Source of the DNA: Desulfatibacillum alkenivorans DSM 16219
GTDB lineage: Bacteria; Desulfobacterota; Desulfobacteria; Desulfobacterales; Desulfatibacillaceae
DNA length: 64,000 nt
Reading direction: 5' to 3'
Assembly: GCF_900142135.1 (NCBI RefSeq)
Contig: NZ_FQZU01000001.1
Location: forward strand, 347,653-411,652
A model generated the notes under the pieces. It worked only from the letters and a program-made list of their open reading frames with translations. It searched no databases and was not told the DNA's origin. Every line of letters starts with the position of its first letter. The first letter of the stretch is position 1. Positions 32,311-54,693 of the stretch are shown piece by piece. The position numbers were made by a program, and so were the translations under genes.

Positions 32311-32725
32311 AGGAGTTTTCTAGTAAGATAAGACGGTTATGTCAATTGAAACCTTTACCGATTGTTCAGGGTTCAGTGACGCGCCGCGTTAATTACACCC
32401 CTTGGATCGCCCATCCTTTTTTCCGCCTTACCGCGCCTAAGGCAATGCCCAAGCCCTATGACGCAAAAAAGGACGCACCAGTTTGTCCCCGTCGGCTGCG
32501 TCAAAACTTTTTTATTCCAACCACGGTTTGTTTGATGAAAAAACTATTATTTTTGCGAAAAAACGCCTGATAAACCTGTCAATGGCCGGTTTTGAAAAAA
32601 CGGCGTCCAGGCTATGGCGGCGTCGCTCCTTAAGAAAGGAAAGGTTTGGCGTGCAGTCGCGGCAGGCAATGCCAGGCGCTCGTTGGAAGGGCGCCTTGGC
32701 ATGGGCTGAATGGGTTGACAAGGGA
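32311..32725. other. intergenic region, no gene recognised
   Basis: These 415 bases hold no frame with family similarity or a ribosome site. Near the tatA stop an imperfect hairpin (TGCCAGGCGC / GCGCCTTGGCA, about 32669-32701) could limit tatA transcription, but it lacks a T-run. Confidence 0.45.
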
Positions 32726-32917
32726 CTATTCTTCGATTTTTTCTTTTTCTTCCGGTTCGGCTTTTTCGTCGATCTCTTTTTTGGACGTGGCGTTCTTGAA
32801 ATTGCGGATGCCTTTGCCCAGACCGGCGCCGATTTCCGGGATTTTCTTTCCTCCGAACAAGATAATCACAATGCCCAGTACGATTAAAAGTTCTGTGGAG
32901 CCGATTCCACCCATCAT
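32726..32917 (-). CDS. tatA: twin-arginine translocase subunit TatA/TatE
   Basis: TatA oligomers form the pore for folded proteins carrying twin-arginine signals. The 63-residue protein has one N-terminal helix ([17 protein letters not shown]), the F-G-G-K-K-I-P-E hinge, an amphipathic helix ([12 protein letters not shown]) and an acidic tail rich in E and K. GGAGG is just upstream; of the two adjacent ATGs the first was used. tatB/C are not adjacent. Confidence 0.93.
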
Positions 32918-44379: not shown

Positions 44380-46491
44380 ATGGCTCTCACTTACGACGCC
44401 ATGGGCAATATTCTGACCAAGTCCGTAGGCTCCGACGTGTTAACCTACGCCTACGAAATGAACGGCTCTGTGCAAACCCAACGGCTCAGTTCAGTTGCCT
44501 ACGGAAGCAATCCCGCCAAATCTTTCGTCCATGACGCCAACGGCAACATGACGCAAGGTTGGGATTTTTCCGATCCTGCAAATCCCGTTCAACGCACCAT
44601 TCAATACAATGCCGACGACAAACCCATTTCCATCACCATGGGATTGGACACAACCCTATTCACCTATGACGCCAACGGAGACCGGGCAATCAAGGAAATC
44701 GCAGGCGGCGACATTACCTATTACGTATCCGGAGGGTATGAGGTCACCAACGGCGTCCCGGTAAAATATATTTCCGGCGGCGGGCTAAGCATCGCCAAAA
44801 TCGAAAATGGGGTAACTACCTATCAGCACTCGGATCACCTGGGAAGCTCCACCGTCGTCACCAATGAATCCGGCCAGGAAATCGAGAAATCCGACTATCG
44901 GCCTTTTGGGGAAGAACGGAACCATTGGGGCGTCACCAATGACAAGCACCGCTATACCGGCCAGGAGAAAGACTTTTCCACGGGCCTGTATAACTATAAC
45001 GCCAGGCTGTACGATCCCATTTTAGGAAGGTTTACTTCCGCGGATATATTCGTTCCCGACCCATTGGACCCTCAAAGCTATAACCGGTTCGCGTATTGCC
45101 GGAACAACCCTTTATCCTATACCGACCCAAGCGGCCATTTTGTTGTGGAAATGATTGTCGGCGCCGTTATAGGCGCCTTGATTGGCGGCGCGACGGAGGC
45201 AATACTTGGAGGGGACATCCTCCAGGGCATGGCGACCGGCGCCATATCGGGGGCCATATTCTTCGGGGTCGGACAGCTGGGCCTAACCGGAATTGAGCAG
45301 ATAACGGCCCACGCCTTGGGAGGGGCGCTATCCGGGGGGATAAGCAGCGCCATATCAGGCGGGGATATCGGCCTGGGCATGCTGACCGGCGCCATTGCCG
45401 CCGGGGTGGGGCAGTATGCAGGGAGCTCCGGACTTATCCACGATGACTTCTGCAGCCAGCTAATCGGAAGAAGCGTTGTCGGCGCCGTGACCGGCGGTGT
45501 TGCGTCCACCATTTGCGGCCAGGATTTCTTTGACGGCTTTATGCAGGGCGCCAAAACCGCGGCCATTGGTTTTTTATGCAATCATATGTTGCACGAAGCA
45601 GGCAGGTTTGTCGGCGCCTCGCAGGGTGAAGCAGCTACTCAATGGTATGCTGAAAAATATAATGAAACCGGCAATCCGATATACCTTGTCGGGGGAACCG
45701 TAGCAGCCCTCTGGACTCCGGAAACCTATGCAGACACCGCCATGACTTTGTTTGGAGGCAAGGCGATAGGCTGGGCCGGGAAGGTTTTGGGCAGGTGGCG
45801 TAACGCAGGGCAAGCGGCCAAGATGGCCAAAGGAACCATTCCCGGCTGTTTTGTTAAAGGCGTACCTGTTGAAACAGCAGTCGGCTTGGTCGCTATTGAA
45901 AACATTCAGGTAGGCGATTTTGTGCTTGCACGGGATGAAGTAACCGGGGAGTTTGCTTATAAGGAGGTTCTGGCGACCTTCATCAGAGGGAAGCAACCGG
46001 TTATTGACTTGAAATTCGAAGATGAGCAGGGACGGGAAGAGATCATCACCGCCACGGTGGAACATCCCTTTTGGGTGAAAGGACAGAGATGGGTAGGGGC
46101 CTCAGACCTTGTTCCAGAGGATCAAATCTTTACTTCCCAAAACCAATGGCTTACACTGATATCAGCTACCCTAACGCCTGAACTGGAAACGGTCTATAAC
46201 TTTGAAGTGGATCAAACCCACAATTACTTTGTGGGCCAGTCCGGCGCCTGGGTGCATAATAACTGTGGTAATGGAAAAAAGATAACCCATAAAATTATTA
46301 AAAGGGCTTCCAAGGGGGCTGATGGTGGTGAATCGGTGCATATAATTGAACAGGCAGGGGGAGAAACTATCTCAGTTACCCATCGCGTAACAAAGGCTGG
46401 ACAAGTTGTTCATCAGCATCAAACTCATATTGGGAAATACGGAAGCTCAAGGGTTTTTCCTGAGTCATGGATAACCAATAAGACAATGTGA
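44380..46491 (+). CDS. Rhs/YD-repeat polymorphic toxin, N-terminally truncated, with Hint domain and toxin tail
   Basis: A 703-residue C-terminal part of an Rhs toxin. Residues 1-210 are YD repeats (L-T-Y-D-A-M-G-N-I-L-T, Y-N-A-D-D-K-P-I), and the core end G-R-F-T-S-A-D ... N-P-L-S-Y-T-D-P-S-G-H is near 210-252. A Gly-rich hydrophobic region (255-400) follows, then a pretoxin Hint (intein-like) domain from Cys490 to His626-Asn627. A 75-residue tail (629-703, H-Q-H-Q-T-H-I-G-K) is the likely toxin. The frame is open back to 44272 and still codes YD repeats, so the gene lost its 5' part. No delivery gene is near. Confidence 0.85.
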   Translation: MALTYDAMGNILTKSVGSDVLTYAYEMNGSVQTQRLSSVAYGSNPAKSFVHDANGNMTQGWDFSDPANPVQRTIQYNADDKPISITMGLDTTLFTYDANGDRAIKEIAGGDITYYVSGGYEVTNGVPVKYISGGGLSIAKIENGVTTYQHSDHLGSSTVVTNESGQEIEKSDYRPFGEERNHWGVTNDKHRYTGQEKDFSTGLYNYNARLYDPILGRFTSADIFVPDPLDPQSYNRFAYCRNNPLSYTDPSGHFVVEMIVGAVIGALIGGATEAILGGDILQGMATGAISGAIFFGVGQLGLTGIEQITAHALGGALSGGISSAISGGDIGLGMLTGAIAAGVGQYAGSSGLIHDDFCSQLIGRSVVGAVTGGVASTICGQDFFDGFMQGAKTAAIGFLCNHMLHEAGRFVGASQGEAATQWYAEKYNETGNPIYLVGGTVAALWTPETYADTAMTLFGGKAIGWAGKVLGRWRNAGQAAKMAKGTIPGCFVKGVPVETAVGLVAIENIQVGDFVLARDEVTGEFAYKEVLATFIRGKQPVIDLKFEDEQGREEIITATVEHPFWVKGQRWVGASDLVPEDQIFTSQNQWLTLISATLTPELETVYNFEVDQTHNYFVGQSGAWVHNNCGNGKKITHKIIKRASKGADGGESVHIIEQAGGETISVTHRVTKAGQVVHQHQTHIGKYGSSRVFPESWITNKTM

Positions 46492-46795: not shown

Positions 46796-47927
46796 TTGGG
46801 GACGTCCCTTAATAAGTTAGTAACTTGACAACCAAAGCATAGTGAGGTAGGGTTGGGCATCATGCCTCGCAAATCCCGAATAGACGCTCCCGGCTTGTTG
46901 CATCATGTCATGATCCGGGGTATTGAGCGTAAGCCCATTTTCTTGGACGACCAGGATCGGAACGCCCTTGTGGATCGTCTTGCATTGGTTTTGCCTGAAA
47001 CCCAGACCGCCTGCTACGCCTGGGTTTTCATGGATAATCACGCCCATTTTCTGTTCCGCAGCCCGCCTGCCGGAATCTCTCATGTCATGCGGCGCCTCAT
47101 GACGGGGTACGCCGGATATTTCAACCGCAGGCATTTTCGTCACGGCCCCCTGTTTCAAAATCGTTTCAAGTCCGTGCTCTGCCAGGAAAACGCCTATTTC
47201 AAGGAGTTGGTGCGGTATATCCATCTTAATCCCTTGCGAGCCGGGGCGGTTGATGATTTAAAAAGCCTCGCCGCCCTTCCGTATTGCGGGCATGGCGGGC
47301 TTTTGGGGAAAAATCTTCGCCCCTGGCATGATGCGGATTTCGTCCTGTCCGGGTTTGGCGACTCTGTGCGAGCTTCCCGCAAGCGCTACATTGATTTCAT
47401 GAAAGCCGGGCTGAACATGGGCAGACGGGACGACCTGACCGGCGGAGGACTTGTACGGAGCCTGGGAGGTTGGGAGGCGGTTAGAGCGGCGTTTCCCTCC
47501 AAGGAATCCCGCCAGAAAAGCGATCAGCGGATTTTGGGGGATGGGGATTTTGTGCAGTCGATCCTGAACCAGGCCAAGGAAAACCTTTCCGGCAAATACC
47601 TTTTGGCTGCCAAAGGCATCGACAAGAAAACCGCGTTGGAAAAGGCCTCGGCCCTTTTTGGCGTCGCGCCGGAGTGGGTTCTCGCCAAATCGCGGCAGCG
47701 GCCCCTGGCTGACGCCCGAAGTCTTTATTGCTATTGGGCGGCGAAAAAGTTGGGGGTGTCCCAGGCAGAACTTGCCTGTGAGCTGAGTATGACCAGTGGA
47801 GGGGTAACCCATGCCGTGAATCGCGGCCGGAGAATAGCCATGGAAAACAAGTATATATTGGATGGTTAAATCTCTGGCAAATATTCTCCAAACTCTAAGT
47901 TAGTACTTTATTAAGGGACGTCCCCAA
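46796..47927 (+). mobile_element. RAYT (IS200-like Y1 transposase) element with 20-bp terminal inverted repeats
   Basis: TTGGGGACGTCCCTTAATAA at 46796-46815 is exactly inverted at 47908-47927, giving a 1,132-base unit with one transposase gene. Each end is itself palindromic (GGGGACGTCCC), as in REP-like hairpins. No target duplication is evident. The gene to the right continues open directly across the right end, so the element landed beside or inside AT-rich island genes. Confidence 0.88.
46862..47869 (+). CDS. REP-associated tyrosine transposase (TnpA-REP, HUH family)
   Basis: A 335-residue Y1/HUH single-strand transposase. It starts M-P-R-K-S-R-I-D-A-P-G-L-L-H-H-V-M-I-R-G-I-E-R, with the HUH pair in M-D-N-H-A-H-F-L-F (near 60) and the presumed catalytic Tyr in E-N-A-Y-F-K-E-L-V-R-Y-I-H-L-N-P-L-R-A-G (about 110-128). 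The C-terminal about 120 residues include a helical D-A-R-S-L-Y-C-Y-W-A-A-K-K-L-G-V-S segment resembling a DnaA-like HTH, as in longer RAYTs. A TTG three codons upstream was not used. Confidence 0.9.
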   Translation: MPRKSRIDAPGLLHHVMIRGIERKPIFLDDQDRNALVDRLALVLPETQTACYAWVFMDNHAHFLFRSPPAGISHVMRRLMTGYAGYFNRRHFRHGPLFQNRFKSVLCQENAYFKELVRYIHLNPLRAGAVDDLKSLAALPYCGHGGLLGKNLRPWHDADFVLSGFGDSVRASRKRYIDFMKAGLNMGRRDDLTGGGLVRSLGGWEAVRAAFPSKESRQKSDQRILGDGDFVQSILNQAKENLSGKYLLAAKGIDKKTALEKASALFGVAPEWVLAKSRQRPLADARSLYCYWAAKKLGVSQAELACELSMTSGGVTHAVNRGRRIAMENKYILDG

Positions 47928-48465: not shown

Positions 48466-49725
48466 TTAATACAATTTTTCCCATTCCTCCCAAAAATTGG
48501 GAAAGGATTTATCCACGCAGGACGGATTGTTGATGACTACCCCCGGGGTTAAAAGCCCGGCCACGGCAAAGCTCATGGCAATGCGGTGATCGTCGTAGGT
48601 GTCGATGACCGCGCCTTCTGGCTTGCCGCCCATGATGGTCATGCTGTCGTCCGTGCACGAGGCCTGGACGCCCATTTTTTTAAGCTCCGTGACGACGGCG
48701 GTAATCCTATCGCTTTCCTTGGCTTTTAAATGCCCCACGTTTTCGATGCGGGTTTCCCCCTTGGCGAATGCCGCCACAACGGCCAGGGTAGGGGCCACGT
48801 CCGGCATATTGCCCATGTCCACGGTGATTCCCTTGAGGTCGCGGCCGGCGACTGCCAGGCCTTCCTGGGTTTCGTCCAGGCGGCATCCCATGGATTTCAG
48901 GATGTAGGCGAACCGGCTGTCCCCCTGACACGAGGCGGAATGGGTTCCGGCCACTCTGATCGTGGCGCCGGTAATGGCCGCCGCTCCCCAGAAATAGCTG
49001 GCGCCCGAGGCGTCGGCCTCCACCATGTATTCCCCCGCCTGATATTGGGATTGGCCGGGCACGGAAAACCAGGTGTGGCCGTCCCGTTTAATTTCCACGC
49101 CCATGGCTTTCATGACCGATACGGTCATGTCAATATAGGGTTTGGAAACCGGACCTTCCGTGACCGCGATTTCCATGCCGTCCTGGGTGTAAGGCGCAAT
49201 AAGCAGCAGGGCTGAGAGATATTGGCTGGACACGCCGCAATTGATGGAAACCTTTCCCCCCTTGACGGCTGTGCCCTGGATTTTGATGGGAGGGCAGCCG
49301 TTCGTGGTCTCCACCGGAACGCCAAGCTGCTCCAGGGCCTGGGCCAGGTCCAGGATGGGCCGCTGCTGCATGCGTTCCGTCCCTGTCAGGGTGTAAGTTC
49401 CCACGCCCATGGCCGCCACGGCGCACATGAGGCGCAGGGTGGTGCCGGAATTGCCAAGATGGATGGGGTCTTCATACCTGCCCAGGCTGCCGCCGAGACC
49501 GTTCACCCAAAATCCGCCCCCCTCGTTCCGTACGCTGACGCCCATTTTGTTCAGGGCGTTCATGGTCAGGAGGGTGTCTTCGCTTACCAGGCCGTTTTTC
49601 ACCTGGGAAAGGCCGTCCGCAAGGGCCGCGCATATCAGCATGCGATGGGTGTAGCTTTTGGACCCCGGAACCGTGACTGTCAAGTCGGTCTTGCCCATGG
49701 GCCGGATTGTGATTTGAGACTCCAT
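48466..49725 (-). CDS. aroA: 3-phosphoshikimate 1-carboxyvinyltransferase (EPSP synthase)
   Basis: AroA joins shikimate-3-phosphate and PEP to EPSP. The 419-residue protein has G-S-K-S-Y-T-H-R (22-29), H-L-G-N-S-G-T-T-L-R-L (about 88-98) and L-K-A-K-E-S-D-R-I and D-D-H-R-I-A-M near the C-terminus. AGAGGT precedes the ATG, one base after the aroE stop. It is the last gene before the island that splits the operon. Confidence 0.96.
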   Translation of the reverse strand: MESQITIRPMGKTDLTVTVPGSKSYTHRMLICAALADGLSQVKNGLVSEDTLLTMNALNKMGVSVRNEGGGFWVNGLGGSLGRYEDPIHLGNSGTTLRLMCAVAAMGVGTYTLTGTERMQQRPILDLAQALEQLGVPVETTNGCPPIKIQGTAVKGGKVSINCGVSSQYLSALLLIAPYTQDGMEIAVTEGPVSKPYIDMTVSVMKAMGVEIKRDGHTWFSVPGQSQYQAGEYMVEADASGASYFWGAAAITGATIRVAGTHSASCQGDSRFAYILKSMGCRLDETQEGLAVAGRDLKGITVDMGNMPDVAPTLAVVAAFAKGETRIENVGHLKAKESDRITAVVTELKKMGVQASCTDDSMTIMGGKPEGAVIDTYDDHRIAMSFAVAGLLTPGVVINNPSCVDKSFPNFWEEWEKLY

Positions 49726-49726
49726 A

Positions 49727-50551
49727 TTACCTCTGGCCTAAGATTGTTTCCACGGTTTCCCGCATTTGGGCGACGGGCGCTTCCTTGCCGGTCCACCATT
49801 CAAATTGCGAGGCCCCCTGATACACGAACATGGCGATTCCGTCCACTATTGTGCATCCGGCGCTCCTTGCGTCGGACAAAAAACGGGTCAGCAAAGGCCG
49901 GTACACAATGTCCATGGCTAGCATGTCTTTGTTAAAAAAGGATGCGGGCGCCGGACTGTCTTGCACATTGGGGACCATGCCCACCGAAGTGGCGTTGACC
50001 GCAATGCGGCAATTCAGGTTGCCCAAATCCTCCATGGGCCGGAAATCAACGCCCAATTCTTCAGCCAGCCTGGCGCCTTTTTCCATGGTGCGATTGACGA
50101 TGGTCACCCTGGCGCCTTCCTGCTTCAAGCCGTAGATGACGGCGCGCGCCGCGCCCCCTGCGCCGATGACCACCACGTCCTTGTCCTTAACCGGCGTTTT
50201 TTCCTGGATGGCCTTGACCGCGCCCAGGCAGTCGGAGTTTTTTCCGATCAACCGGCCCTGGTCATTGATGATGGTGTTGACCGCGCCCATGGCCCGGGCC
50301 GTTTCGTCCACCTCGTCCAGATGCTCCATGACCGAAATCTTATGGGGGATGGTCACGCTGGCGCCGCCCATGTCTAGTGCGCGGATAGCCTGGACCGCCC
50401 CCTGGACGTCCTTGACGCGAAAAGCCATGTACGCCGCATTTTCGCCGATGTGCGCAAAGGCCCGGTTATGCATGGCCGGGCTGAGGCTGTGGGCCACGGG
50501 ATCGCCGAACACGGCGTACAACCGGGTCAGGGAATTGACTTCCACGGTCAT
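49727..50551 (-). CDS. aroE: shikimate dehydrogenase
   Basis: AroE reduces 3-dehydroshikimate with NADPH. The 274-residue protein starts M-T-V-E-V-N-S-L-T-R-L-Y-A-V-F-G-D-P-V-A-H-S-L-S-P-A-M-H-N. It has V-T-I-P-H-K-I (catalytic Lys), G-A-G-G-A-A-R-A-V and N-R-T-M-E-K NADP motifs and N-A-T-S-V-G-M. The ATG overlaps the pheA stop (ATGA); an upstream extension was rejected. No aroD/aroQ dehydratase gene is in this operon. Confidence 0.95.
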   Translation of the reverse strand: MTVEVNSLTRLYAVFGDPVAHSLSPAMHNRAFAHIGENAAYMAFRVKDVQGAVQAIRALDMGGASVTIPHKISVMEHLDEVDETARAMGAVNTIINDQGRLIGKNSDCLGAVKAIQEKTPVKDKDVVVIGAGGAARAVIYGLKQEGARVTIVNRTMEKGARLAEELGVDFRPMEDLGNLNCRIAVNATSVGMVPNVQDSPAPASFFNKDMLAMDIVYRPLLTRFLSDARSAGCTIVDGIAMFVYQGASQFEWWTGKEAPVAQMRETVETILGQR

Positions 50552-51645
50552 GGCCTGTCCCCCACCGGGTACGATCCCAGCCATTTTACGAAGGAGCACA
50601 GGGTGCGCATTTTATCCACCACTTTTTTGACAGGCTCATCCTTCATGTGCCCTTCCAGGTCAACGAAAAAGAGGTAGTGCCAGCTTGCGCTCTTGGACGG
50701 CCGCGACTCCAGCTTGACCATGTTCAGCCCTTCTTCCGAAATGGGCTGCAACACGCTGTGCAAAGCGCCCGGAATGTGAGGTATGGCGAAGAGCAGGGAG
50801 GTTTTATCCCGCCCCGTGGGCTGGACCTTGTCCCGGCCGATGACCAGAAATCGGGTGATGTTGGTCGTGGAGTCCTGGATGTTATCCGCCAGGGTGTTCA
50901 ACTCGTAAGTGATGGCCGCCTCCGAGCTGGCAATGGCCGCGCCGCCCGGGGTGTTGACCGCCATGCGCGCCGCCTCGGACGTGCTGGAGCATTGGTTCTG
51001 CAAAATGCCTGGCAGGTTTTTGCCCAGCCACTTGCGGCATTGGGCGATGGCCTGGGGATGGGAAAACACCACCATAATCTGGTCCAGGGAGTCCTCCGCG
51101 GACAGCAGGTCGTGCCGGATGGGCAGGTAGATTTCGCCGCAAATCCTGACGTCGCTTTCCTGGAACAGGTCCAGGGTCAGGTTCACGGCGCCTTCCATGG
51201 AGTTTTCCACCGGGACCACGCCAAAAGGCCTCCGCCTTTTATCCACCTCCTCGAACACGTCCGAGATGGTTGCCAGGGGCGTAAAATTGGTGGAGCGGCC
51301 GAAATGCTTCATGGCCGCCATGTGGGTGAAGGTCGCCTTGGGGCCCAGGTAGCCCACTTCCAGGGGCTGCTGGATCCTGCGGGACGCGGCGATGATTTCC
51401 GTATACAAAAGCAGCAGGGTTTCGTCAGGCATGGGGCCTTCGTTCAACTCCTGCAGCTTGTTCAGCACCGCCCGTTCCCGGGAGAAGTCCACCACCGGCA
51501 GGCCCTTGCCCTGCTTGATTGCGCCGATTTTCCGGGCGATGTCCAGGCGTTCGTTGACCAGGGCCAGGATCTTTTGATCCGTTTCGTTGATAGCCTGCCT
51601 TAAGGGTTCCAATTCGGGGAGGCCGTTTTTGTTGGATGGTTTCAT
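50548..51645 (-). CDS. pheA: bifunctional chorismate mutase / prephenate dehydratase
   Basis: PheA carries chorismate through prephenate to phenylpyruvate. The 365-residue protein has an N-terminal AroQ mutase domain (about 8-95: R-Q-A-I-N-E-T-D-Q-K-I-L-A-L-V-N-E-R). A prephenate dehydratase domain follows (about 98-275: G-Y-L-G-P-K-A-T-F-T-H, G-V-V-P-V-E-N-S-M-E-G) with the T-N-I-T-R-F catalytic Thr, and an ACT domain at the end with the G-A-L-H-S-V-L and E-S-R-P-S Phe-binding motifs. It overlaps aroB' by ATGA. Confidence 0.95.
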   Translation of the reverse strand: MKPSNKNGLPELEPLRQAINETDQKILALVNERLDIARKIGAIKQGKGLPVVDFSRERAVLNKLQELNEGPMPDETLLLLYTEIIAASRRIQQPLEVGYLGPKATFTHMAAMKHFGRSTNFTPLATISDVFEEVDKRRRPFGVVPVENSMEGAVNLTLDLFQESDVRICGEIYLPIRHDLLSAEDSLDQIMVVFSHPQAIAQCRKWLGKNLPGILQNQCSSTSEAARMAVNTPGGAAIASSEAAITYELNTLADNIQDSTTNITRFLVIGRDKVQPTGRDKTSLLFAIPHIPGALHSVLQPISEEGLNMVKLESRPSKSASWHYLFFVDLEGHMKDEPVKKVVDKMRTLCSFVKWLGSYPVGDRP

Positions 51646-52634
51646 TTTTCCGTTATGGTCTCCTTGATTTTATGGCCGAAGTGACGCCCGCCTTCTTCCA
51701 GGCTGGCCAGCACTTTATCGCCGGGCTTGAGAGCCACCACGGAAAGGGGCTTGCCGTCGGTCGCCACAAGGCGGATGGTTTCGGCGTTTTGGCAAATGGT
51801 GGTTATCTTTTTATCGCCTGCCTTGGCGGTAATCAACAGCAAAGGCCGTTTTTCGATTTTCAGCCTGCCCACAACGCCGATGGAGCACTTGCCCTTGTAA
51901 TCCGTAATAAGCACTTCATCCCCTGCGCTGAGCTCGGAAAGATACCGGGTTTTGTTGCCCGGAACCTTGGTGTAGGCATGAACCGCCCCTGCGTTCACTC
52001 TGAAAGGACGAGCCGCCACATAGGGATTCTCAATGCTTTCGGAGTGAATCAGAAACATGGCCGCCGAGGAATTGCCCACCAGCATGCCTTCTCCGGGCTT
52101 CATGTCCGTGCAGGTGTCCACGCACACCCGGTCGCCCATGCCCACGGCCTTGACTTCCGTAATCTCCACCGGAACCACCGGGGCGCTTATCCCTTCGCCT
52201 TTTAAAAAGGCCAGAGTGCGTTTAAGCTCGGCCGGGTCCGGCGTGTCGATCAGCACGCCCCAGACCCCGTGCTCCAGAATGCCGGCGGCGGTTTTGGCTT
52301 CGTCCAGGCTCTTGGCCGGGTGCACCACCCTGGCGCCTTTGGCGATGAGGTTTTCCAGGGGGATGATGCTCCAGTCCGGCGTATCCACAATGACCGGCCC
52401 CATGGCCTGAGCCTGGATAATCTGGTCTTCGTCGTCCATGCCGGTAATGGTGATGGTGCTCAGGTCCTTGCCGGGAATCAAATCCCCGTCCGGGGCGATG
52501 GTGGTTATCCGGCCCAGTTCCTTGACTTTTTCAGCGTATCCCTCGGGAACCATAAGCGCGTCCGCGCCGCCCTCCAGGGCGGTGGTGACAAGGTCTTTGT
52601 TCCAGGGATCCACTTTTACCCAAATGGTTTTCAT
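51642..52634 (-). CDS. aroB': 3-dehydroquinate synthase II (archaeal-type)
   Basis: This enzyme makes 3-dehydroquinate by oxidative deamination of 2-amino-3,7-dideoxy-D-threo-hept-6-ulosonate, the Methanocaldococcus route that bypasses DAHP. The 330-residue protein has the family start W-V-K-V-D-P-W-N-K-D, E-G-G-A-D-A-L-M-V-P-E, D-T-C-T-D-M-K-P-G-E-G-M-L-V-G and F-R-V-N-A-G-A-V-H-A-Y. It follows aroA' after 14 bases. No DAHP synthase or classical AroB is in the window. Confidence 0.94.
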   Translation of the reverse strand: MKTIWVKVDPWNKDLVTTALEGGADALMVPEGYAEKVKELGRITTIAPDGDLIPGKDLSTITITGMDDEDQIIQAQAMGPVIVDTPDWSIIPLENLIAKGARVVHPAKSLDEAKTAAGILEHGVWGVLIDTPDPAELKRTLAFLKGEGISAPVVPVEITEVKAVGMGDRVCVDTCTDMKPGEGMLVGNSSAAMFLIHSESIENPYVAARPFRVNAGAVHAYTKVPGNKTRYLSELSAGDEVLITDYKGKCSIGVVGRLKIEKRPLLLITAKAGDKKITTICQNAETIRLVATDGKPLSVVALKPGDKVLASLEEGGRHFGHKIKETITEK

Positions 52635-52648
52635 GAGACGCCTTTCGC

Positions 52649-53443
52649 TTAGAGGAGTTCCAGGGCTTGTTCAACGGATGCATCATCATGCACAATGGAT
52701 GAAATGGCGCGAACGATTTTTACCGGAGCGGCGTGCTGGAACACGTTCCGGCCGATGGAAACGCCTGCGCCGCCGGCTTCCACGGAGCCCTTGACCATTT
52801 CCAGGATGTCGCGGTCCGAATCCATTTTGGCTCCGCCTGCAATGACGACCGGGATGGCGCAGCCGGAAGTGACTTCGTGGAAGGAATCAGGCGTCCCGGT
52901 GTATGGCACCTTGACGATGTCGGCGCCCATTTCATGGCCCAGGCGGGCGGCGTGCTTGACGTATTTAACGTCGTATTCATCCACGATTTTCTCGCCGCGA
53001 GGGTAGATCATGGCAAGCAGAGGCATGCCCCATGTGCGCGCCTGGTAGCTGATTTCGCCGAAATCCCTAAGCATGTCCTTTTCCAGGCCGTCGCCCAGAT
53101 TCACATGGATGGACACGGCGTCCGCGCCCAGTTTGATGGCTTCTTCCATGGTGCAGATAAGGGTTTTTGCGTTGGGGAAAGGGGAAAGGGAGGTGGATGC
53201 CGAAAGGTGGATGATCAGCCCGATGTCAGGTCCGTCGCCCCGGTGGCCTTCCATAACAAGCCCTTTGTGGACCACCACCGCGTTTGCGCCGCCCGCGGCC
53301 ACGGAATTAATGGCGGTTTTCATGTCCTGCAGCCCGTCAATGGGGCCGACCGAAATGCCGTGATCCATGGGAACCAACACGGTGCGGCGGGTTTTTCGGT
53401 TGAGAATGCGTTCCATCCTGATTTGTTTTCCAACGAAGGTCAT
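52649..53443 (-). CDS. aroA': 2-amino-3,7-dideoxy-D-threo-hept-6-ulosonate synthase
   Basis: A class I aldolase-like enzyme that condenses aspartate semialdehyde with a deoxy-ketohexose phosphate product in the archaeal shikimate entry. The 264-residue protein has [12 protein letters not shown] (about 25-36), V-V-H-K-G-L-V (55-61), [11 protein letters not shown] (Schiff-base Lys) and [12 protein letters not shown]. FbaB/DhnA relatives are the main alternative, but coupling to aroB' supports this call. AAGGAG precedes the ATG; it is the first structural gene behind the attenuator. Confidence 0.92.
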
Positions 53444-53533
53444 TTTTCCTGCTCCTTTGATTTTGGTTGCCTTCCCCGGAAAAAGGGAAGGGCCGTGAAG
53501 CCTTTTTTCGCTCCACAGCCCTTTCCGAAAACC

Positions 53534-53571
53534 AAAAAAGCCGTGGAGACTTTTCGGTCCGCCACGGCTTT
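53534..53571 (-). terminator. attenuator terminator in the aro leader
   Basis: On the minus strand AAAGCCGTGG (53571-53562) pairs with CCACGGCTTT, with an inner GGAC/GTC stem and CGAAAA loop, followed by TTTT. It lies about 90 bases before aroA', ahead of the operon rather than after a gene, so it is an attenuator. The bases at 53556-53563 (GGCGGACC) can instead pair with GGTCTGCC at 53613-53620. Confidence 0.85.
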
Positions 53572-53593
53572 GTTGTGTTTGATGGGTTTCAGC

Positions 53594-53686
53594 TCACCCT
53601 CGCGCACCTCCGGGCAGACCGGTGCTAAAAAAATAATAAAAATAAAAATAGCACTTGTTAAAAAGTCTGCCGAAATTGGTAATCAC
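53594..53686 (-). CDS. Tyr/Phe-rich leader peptide of the aromatic amino acid operon
   Basis: A 30-codon frame with a GTG start (53684-53686) and GGAG nine bases before it (53696-53699). Residues 13-20 read Y-F-Y-F-Y-Y-F-F, eight aromatic codons in a row, all TAT/TTT, and the peptide ends S-T-G-L-P-G-G-A-R-G-stop. A segment before the run (GGCAGACT, 53664-53671) can pair with GGTCTGCC (53613-53620) after the run, which in turn can pair with the terminator. This is the classical layout of ribosome-stalling attenuation, sensing charged tRNA-Tyr and tRNA-Phe. It is too short for ordinary gene finders. Confidence 0.88.
   Translation of the reverse strand: MITNFGRLFNKCYFYFYYFFSTGLPGGARG
53594..53686 (-). 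promoter_or_regulatory. Phe/Tyr attenuator: pause, antiterminator and terminator segments
   Basis: Segment 1 GGCAGACT (53664-53671) and segment 2 GGTCTGCC (53613-53620) pair over eight bases with one G-U. Segment 2 and segment 3 (CGGTCTGCC with GGCGGACCG at 53555-53563) pair over nine bases with one G-U. Segment 3 forms part of the terminator at 53534-53571. A ribosome stalled on the Tyr/Phe codons would cover segment 1, free segment 2 and favour antitermination. Confidence 0.8.
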
Positions 53687-53730
53687 GTAAATGGGCTCCG
53701 TTAGCTGAAAATTAACCTCAAGTTGGCTCT

Positions 53731-53760
53731 GTGATACGGGATGCCGATAGAGTGTGTCAA
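53731..53760 (-). promoter_or_regulatory. promoter of the aromatic amino acid operon
   Basis: On the minus strand a perfect TTGACA (53755-53760) is followed after 18 bases by TATCAC (53731-53736). Transcription would begin near 53725, about 40 bases before the leader-peptide start. Confidence 0.65.
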
Positions 53761-53838: not shown

Positions 53839-54693
53839 TTACAAGGCTGTGCTTTGCCTCAGGATAATTCCGCCCATGGGCGCGCCCATGTCGCGCTCAA
53901 TGACCGGGCACTTGATTTGGAGCAGGCAGAACACCTTGGGACCGGCGTTGTTCAGGGTCTCGTAATTGCCCTGGCCTTTGGCGATGATCACCGGCGCTTT
54001 GTTATAGGCCTCCACGAATTCCGGCTTGCACAGGGACAGGATGGTGCCCGGGGCGTCCGCGCCGTTGTCAAGGAGGGTTGTTGCGGCCTTGTCCAGGCCG
54101 GCGGCGATTGCGTCCTCCATAATGGCGTCGTTGAGGATGGGCCTGCCCCTGACCGCATAGACCACGGGCTTGTCCAGGGTTTCGATGAGCACCCGGTCGA
54201 ACACGGTTTCTCCCGCGTTATCCCCCAAATACAAAATATGATCCGCCATTTCCATCTCCCGGCGCAAAATCGCTTCGTCGTCCACGGCGTAATCCTGGGC
54301 CAATACCCGGTCCACCGTATGCCACAGGTCCTCGTGCTCGTCGGACACGCCCAGGTCGATGATGTTACCCGCAATGGCGAGGCGCAGGGCCGTCCCCAAA
54401 GGATCGGCGCTGGCCGCGACCATGGCCTTCAGGTCGTCATACAACTCCATGGCCGCCCGGGTGCAGCGGGCTTTGGCTTCCTTGTACGGGTCCGGGTTGT
54501 TGCTGTATGCGCGGATAATGCCGTGAACGGCCTTGGCCACGTGAGGCGGCGTGGTTTCCGGGCTTAGGTTTTGCAACAGTTCCAGAACCTTGACCATGAT
54601 TTTATGCTGAACCGGATCGTCGCAACCCGCGTGACGGGCTGCGTTGATGGTCTGGCGGACGAAACATGCGTAGCAATCCAGGTAAAACTTCAC
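53839..54693 (-). CDS. DUF89 (ARMT1-like) damage-control phosphatase
   Basis: The 284-residue protein starts M-K-F-Y-L-D-C-Y-A-C-F-V-R-Q, with the Cys pair typical of prokaryotic DUF89 proteins. It has Y-L-G-D-N-A-G-E-T-V-F-D (about 153-164, metal and phosphate site) and ends C-P-V-I-E-R-D-M-G-A-P-M-G. DUF89 proteins are metal-dependent phosphatases of sugar phosphates or damaged cofactors. The GTG start has GGGAG six bases before. It lies 32 bases downstream of the sigma-54 activator on the same strand. Confidence 0.85.
   Translation of the reverse strand: MKFYLDCYACFVRQTINAARHAGCDDPVQHKIMVKVLELLQNLSPETTPPHVAKAVHGIIRAYSNNPDPYKEAKARCTRAAMELYDDLKAMVAASADPLGTALRLAIAGNIIDLGVSDEHEDLWHTVDRVLAQDYAVDDEAILRREMEMADHILYLGDNAGETVFDRVLIETLDKPVVYAVRGRPILNDAIMEDAIAAGLDKAATTLLDNGADAPGTILSLCKPEFVEAYNKAPVIIAKGQGNYETLNNAGPKVFCLLQIKCPVIERDMGAPMGGIILRQSTAL

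Follow-up and report, generated by a model that had tools for sequence, protein, structure and literature searches.

The question raised by this locus is what kind of transcriptional control a short translated leader, dense in codons for aromatic amino acids, would exert on an archaeal-type aromatic operon, and whether the classical attenuators of E. coli are a sufficient model for it. The E. coli pheA and trp attenuators each respond to one amino acid (Phe or Trp) and act on one terminator, and the single leader of E. coli ilvGMEDA serves a branched pathway and answers to several of its end products. The his attenuator of Salmonella and E. coli is built of six segments that pair as A:B and E:F in the off state and as B:C and D:E in the on state; when the ribosome is slow, B:C and D:E form, so that the terminator E:F is prevented (PMC4046918). 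A tandem second terminator with a potential antiterminator is described for the rimP leader of Gammaproteobacteria in the main text of a survey of premature terminators (PMC2965389). In an Rfam-based survey of regulatory RNAs, the leaders of this kind that were covered are those for His, Leu, Thr and Trp only, and a possible origin of amino acid attenuators in Gammaproteobacteria, followed by few transfers, was proposed (PMC3766115).

Genomic context and leader peptide

The DNA analysed is a 64 kb stretch (hereafter the window) from a sulfate-reducing bacterium. The attenuator and its operon lie on the minus strand, as do all features given below without a strand. The operon is tightly packed in the order aroA'-aroB'-pheA-aroE-aroA and encodes 2-amino-3,7-dideoxy-D-threo-hept-6-ulosonate (ADTH) synthase (aroA', 52649..53443; TIGR01949, 375.9 bits), 3-dehydroquinate synthase II (aroB', 51642..52634; NF002627, 514.8 bits), prephenate dehydratase with a chorismate mutase-like N-terminus (pheA, 50548..51645; NF008865, 280.5 bits), shikimate dehydrogenase (aroE, 49727..50599; TIGR00507) and 3-phosphoshikimate 1-carboxyvinyltransferase (EPSP synthase; aroA, 48466..49725; TIGR01356). 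All five matches are above the respective cut-offs; models of the chorismate mutase domain score under theirs at the pheA N-terminus. The preliminary description of this locus had placed the whole pathway under the control of the leader, which goes too far, the operon comprising five pathway genes only. The upstream gene (53839-54693) resembles damage-control phosphatases at scores under the model cut-offs and stops short of the promoter-like site of the leader. A second AroA' paralog in the same genome (G000:C40:207169-207945) is 53% identical, and neither an aromatic leader nor tandem hairpins were seen in the upstream sequence inspected for it. On the far side of the operon, a 703-aa open frame on the plus strand (44380-46491), RHS/YD-repeat-like by eye and with a HINT-like segment, is adjoined by a possible transposase (46853-47869), also recognised by eye.

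A promoter-like site, TTGACA-N18-TATCAC, can be read in the sequence at 53731..53760 (TTGACA at 53760-53755), as previously proposed. It is followed by a GGAG ribosome-binding site (53696..53699), 9 nt 5' of a GTG codon, and by a leader ORF of 30 codons, (V/M)ITNFGRLFNKCYFYFYYFFSTGLPGGARG, which extends over 53594..53686 with its GTG at 53686 and its stop at 53594. The frame reads VITNFGRLFNKC-YFYFYYFF-STGLPGGARG* and has eight consecutive codons for Tyr or Phe (Y F Y F Y Y F F) as its control codons at 53627..53650, in agreement with the first description. The predicted peptide is rich in codons for the amino acids that the operon would produce, as in an attenuator. Among 2000 shuffles of the 450 nt upstream that preserve dinucleotides, none reached a density of nine aromatic codons in twelve, and a six-frame scan of the 64 kb window returned just one further site with eight aromatic codons in twelve, at 32717-32760 on the plus strand.

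Architecture of the leader RNA

Downstream of the GTG, the RNA contains segment 1 (core GGCAGAC, 53665..53671), segment 2 (CGGUCUGCC, 53613..53621), which codes for G-L-P, and segment 3 (GGCGGACCG, 53555..53563), which lies within the 5' arm and loop of terminator 1. The latter (3:4, 53534..53568) consists of a stem at 53568-53540 followed by a U6 tract at 53539-53534 and folds, with its flanks, at -21.7 kcal/mol; a predicted intrinsic terminator of stem and U6 thus precedes the first structural gene, as an attenuator would require. For segments 1-3 and terminator 1, the coordinates first proposed prove right to within 1-2 bases.

Directly downstream of terminator 1 lies a tandem, terminator-like second hairpin (hairpin 2, 5:6; 53490..53521). 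The 3' arm of terminator 1 is segment 4, whose core (CUCCACGGC, 53540..53548) can pair with that of segment 5 (GCUGUGGAG, 53511..53519), so that segment 5 has either segment 4 or segment 6 as its partner; in the window, 53548-53540 and 53519-53511 form nine contiguous pairs. The U-tract after hairpin 2 is interrupted (UUCCCUUUUU, 53489-53480), and this hairpin may be a weak terminator in the window.

Conservation of the leader among relatives

A close AroA' is present in 170 of the 389 genomes of the order, the window's protein being 92% identical to that of Desulfatibacillum sp. MAG7. Upstream DNA was read at 142 distinct loci, mostly from Desulfobacterales, four of which were too short, leaving 138 usable regions. 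A short leader frame with a dense Phe/Tyr/Trp run was found in 132 of these 138, so that the outcome named beforehand as refuting the attenuator, a loss of the aromatic run in relatives, was not seen. The run is broken by a stop in L031, and five regions (L042, L060, L061, L188 and the archaeal L068) gave no accepted leader. In L031 the stop falls inside the run (...YRYFF*), approximately 165-209 nt upstream of its aroA', and the hairpins are intact; this leader is decayed or wrongly assembled. At least seven aromatic codons in twelve occur in 89% of the relatives' upstream regions, compared with 0.9% of shuffles and 5% on the opposite strand, and the mean over 79 non-redundant loci is 9.2 aromatic codons per leader. 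In 83 of the 132 relatives, the 130 nt upstream of the leader contain a TTGAC-type site together with a TA-rich -10; in the examples inspected, the site lies some 60-75 nt ahead of the leader.

The mixed Tyr and Phe sensing initially put forward is too narrow for most relatives, as 54 of the 79 non-redundant leaders contain Trp codons besides, a few of them in the tail only. Judged roughly by eye, leader Trp codons may tend weakly to go with the absence of a separate DAHP synthase, a tendency that is confounded by phylogeny and on which no claim is built.

Covariation of the alternative pairings

The pairings were assessed by comparing the duplex energy of the two segments of one locus with the energies obtained when the segments came from separate loci. 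As these statistics ignore kinship on the tree, the weight is carried by a control pairing, 3:6, which shares its phylogeny and its kind of sequence with 4:5. Pairings 1:2 and 2:3 covary with z -12.3 and -9.6, respectively (n=79 non-redundant loci), and 3:4 and 5:6 with z -12.7 and -15.4 (n=65). The mutually exclusive 1:2, 2:3 and 3:4, on which the likeness to the trp and pheA leaders was originally founded, are therefore each maintained. Counting of pairs in alignments likewise backs 1:2, 2:3, 3:4 and 5:6; for 2:3, 86.7% of the cells are paired, with 9 double changes against 2.6 in shuffles.

For 4:5 the z value is -7.8, compared with -1.4 for the 3:6 control (n=65 non-redundant loci). With the loci thinned by clustering of the leader DNA (n=72, 29 and 8), 4:5 gives z -8.6, -5.0 and -2.3 and 3:6 gives -1.4, -0.7 and -0.5. 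Against partners matched for GC and length, the difference for 4:5 is 1.3 kcal/mol (t -6.6). In a 52-locus alignment, 4:5 is paired in 82.4% of cells (78.5 +/- 0.7 when shuffled) and shows 40 double-change cells compared with 21 +/- 5 in shuffles, the corresponding figures for 3:6 being 16 and 14 +/- 3; sliding this alignment by one column abolishes the 4:5 pairing. Hairpins of the same DNA, paired at random, were also tried as a null for 4:5 and were uninformative. Since such unrelated, GC-rich arms pair at a mean of -11 kcal/mol, the strength of 4:5 is by itself unconvincing and the case rests on its covariation.

The second alternative pairing of a his-type system (D:E, here 4:5) would thus have its counterpart in both pairing potential and covariation. 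The first reading of the locus had overlooked hairpin 2 (53521-53490) and the covarying 4:5, and with these two features the architecture extends beyond the plain trp/pheA type. From its sequence, the element looks like a six-segment relay in which 1:2, 3:4 and 5:6 make up the off state and 2:3 and 4:5 the on state.

Natural variants and alternative origins of the second hairpin

The second hairpin was recognised in 37 loci in a first pass and then in 118 of the 132 leaders, which were initially typed as 105 type A (both hairpins), 13 type B and 14 type C, the last with the first hairpin only and the second not recognised. A check of the U-tracts moved L176 and L181 from type A to type B and showed a weak tract in L035, which had been called B. 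The resulting 14 type B leaders, in which hairpin 1 lacks a U-tract and hairpin 2 has one, belong to families f10 (L185), f18 (L056, L153, L162, L168, L176, L180, L181, L186), f21 (L134) and f27 (L057, L164, L166, L183); losses of the U-tract were counted by family (four families). In these leaders the stem of hairpin 1 is kept, and sequences such as ACUCCAG, AAUACAG and GAGACUA take the place of the U-tract behind it. The window leader is of type A, with its second U-tract interrupted. The arrangement of his, in which only the last hairpin is a terminator, is that of the 14 type B leaders and not that of the window or of most relatives.

These variants bear on the simplest competing account, a plain trp/pheA-type attenuator in which 1:2, 2:3 and terminator 1 would be regulated and hairpin 2 would be uncoupled, serving as a back-up or leaky terminator or protecting the 5' end. 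The absence of the second hairpin from the 14 type C leaders, which with the predicted terminator 1 only can work in the classical manner, and the interrupted tract in the window are in its favour. Such a scheme leaves the covariation of 4:5, not shared by 3:6, without an explanation, and a strong uncoupled second terminator would shut the operon in the on state. In type B, moreover, hairpin 1 is not built as a terminator. A trp/pheA-like scheme would leave these operons without regulation and a relay through 4:5 would not; the type B pattern is the one to be anticipated for a signal handed on by 4:5. An uncoupled hairpin 2 is for these reasons an unlikely account, albeit one to be taken seriously. 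A second possibility is that the likeness of the two hairpins stems from duplication or gene conversion of one terminator, with the 4:5 complementarity as a by-product. A GCCGUGG-like core is indeed common to both stems in most loci, but concerted evolution should raise 3:6 like 4:5, and 3:6 is hardly better within than between loci, which makes this origin of the complementarity improbable.

Proposed mechanism

Very probably, the element is a transcription attenuator that works through the leader ribosome at the head of aromatic amino acid synthesis, with a relay to terminator 2. From the leader, the five pairings, their covariation and the natural variants, we infer a course of events involving ribosome stalling, termination, the relay and a kinetic competition between 4:5 and 5:6. 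With Phe-tRNA and Tyr-tRNA charged, the ribosome would get to the stop codon and mask segment 2, upon which 3:4 and 5:6 would fold and RNA polymerase would be released at terminator 1 or else at terminator 2. With charged tRNA scarce, the ribosome would stall on the Tyr/Phe run and mask segment 1, leaving segment 2 free to form 2:3 and thereby to block terminator 1; the freed segment 4, the 3' arm of this terminator, would capture segment 5 as it emerges and so disarm terminator 2. If the leader were not translated, 1:2 would form and both terminators would fold.

Partition-function folding with the ribosome footprint masked, averaged over the non-redundant two-hairpin loci, is consistent with this scheme. 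The mean probability of 3:4 is 0.96 for a ribosome at the stop codon and 0.84 when the leader is not translated, and drops to 0.46-0.51 for a stall early or midway in the run (0.46 midway); that of 5:6 is 0.90, 0.86 and about 0.70 (0.69 for a midway stall), respectively. With 2:3 locked, segment 4 holds segment 5 (~0.7) until about three quarters of segment 6 has emerged; at full length, 0.44 of segment 5 joins segment 6, compared with 0.77 when segment 4 is unavailable. The switch is visible in this mean over relatives and not in the equilibrium folding of the window alone, whose own sequence gives 0.90 for 3:4 and 1.00 for 5:6 with a stalled ribosome and favours the terminators in every state. 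According to this model, the switch would have to be kinetic, that is, to depend on the order of folding, as equilibrium keeps the terminators even under a stalled ribosome. A dependence on folding order is generally assumed for such switches.

Other modes of sensing fit the leader less well than slow decoding of aromatic codons. It might be argued that the leader encodes an arrest peptide whose conserved TGLPG-R tail senses a free aromatic metabolite, and this tail is well kept in most relatives. The tail overlaps segment 2, however, and RNA pairing accounts for its conservation; in some lineages it differs (FTGPECASTFKR, TYPRGLSMA, IGVPRHAL) with the aromatic run retained, and an arrest peptide is accordingly very improbable. 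A metabolite riboswitch, a T-box or a protein-binding leader can hardly be entertained, having no point in its support, as such elements need no conserved translated aromatic frame and none of the Rfam families was found at threshold in the window or at 12 relatives' loci.

Distribution beyond the aroA' operons

A covariance model spanning segment 2 to hairpin 2 (R1) was run at permissive thresholds and gave matches in 105 of 116 genomes at the level of the order and in 198 of 297 at that of the phylum; the weak matches include other tandem hairpins and are not to be counted as members. In genomes without a close AroA', strong R1 matches precede genes for an AroFGH-type DAHP synthase, AroB and aroE, as identified in L226, and similar gene starts follow in L229-L234, L242 and L243. 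Farther away in the phylum, the leader occurs ahead of a B. subtilis-type DAHP synthase (L238, L241) or of an AroA'-like gene (L237). The tie to archaeal-type genes drawn in the preliminary description is thus not upheld: as the leader also precedes an AroFGH-type DAHP synthase and AroB, it is tied to the head of the pathway and not to the archaeal-type enzymes. The same predicted regulation is conserved in L226, L229-L234, L242 and L243 above different enzymes for the same steps.

Two further leaders were found with R1 in the window's genome. One (G000:C28:119390-119523; L251, L257) is a weak match with a WWWQVW leader (...NNCWWWQVWMRCARVLGRS) ahead of a B. subtilis-type DAHP synthase-trpE pair, from which it seems that Trp is sensed apart from Phe and Tyr in this genome. 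The other (G000:C40:460552-460684; L224, L250) is an aromatic- and Leu-rich leader (...VWYLFFLFLFYQVCS). It has two hairpins, of which the first lacks a U-tract, and precedes a phenylacetate-CoA ligase homologue scoring just below the curated PaaK cut-off. The genes behind this leader also include one for a 143-aa protein and one for a possible transporter binding protein. In related genomes, Trp-rich leaders (NWWWLSS and ICWCWQ) with tandem hairpins were noticed on trpE-trpG-trpD-like operons (L226:663-790 and L240:698-822, oriented coordinates).

Comparison with known attenuators

With the E. coli pheA and trp attenuators the element shares a translated leader with control codons and the exclusive pairings 1:2, 2:3 and terminator 3:4; it differs from them in its codons for Phe and Tyr (Phe, Tyr and Trp in relatives), its second hairpin, its 4:5 pairing and its position upstream of the pathway head. 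E. coli ilvGMEDA resembles it, in a likeness drawn without sequence comparison, in that several end products act on one leader, those of ilvGMEDA being branched-chain. The closest parallel in mechanism is the his attenuator, a six-segment relay from a leader ribosome to a downstream terminator, which the type B relatives match. His is sensed there, whereas aromatic amino acids appear to be sensed here, and in the window and most members 3:4 is also built as a terminator, so that two terminators would be coupled. The rimP leader likewise has a tandem terminator, but precedes another gene, and an amino-acid-specific leader peptide is not described for it in the main text of the survey, which makes no mention there of aromatic amino acids or of Desulfo- genera (PMC2965389).

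None of the Rfam 15 leader families, including Trp_leader and His_leader, scored above the gathering score in the window or in 12 related loci, and at a permissive threshold the window gave just weak sub-threshold matches to unrelated families. No description of attenuators in Desulfobacterota or of an aromatic leader of such design was found in the open-access literature. Three points appear to be new here: two terminators coupled in the majority of members, the sensing of Phe and Tyr (and Trp) at the pathway head, and the taxonomic home. Together, we consider it reasonably probable that these leaders form a widespread, undescribed class of attenuators in Desulfobacterota, in which a single leader ribosome, decoding Phe, Tyr and in many cases Trp, acts on both tandem terminators by way of 1:2/3:4/5:6 versus 2:3/4:5, at the head of the aromatic pathway and over either AroA'/AroB' or DAHP synthase/AroB.

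Biological significance

A leader class with an architecture of its own is present in the majority of the Desulfobacterales studied and, with less strength, throughout the phylum. Its design would be compact, the codons for two or three aromatic end products being read at the entry of a branched pathway and acting on two terminators by one relay. The natural variants, in which terminator 1 is lost, the second hairpin is absent or a Trp codon is present or missing, open the mechanism to direct testing, and as a new RNA family the leader is a concrete candidate. It also supplies a hypothesis on how bacteria might regulate an aromatic pathway of the archaeal type.
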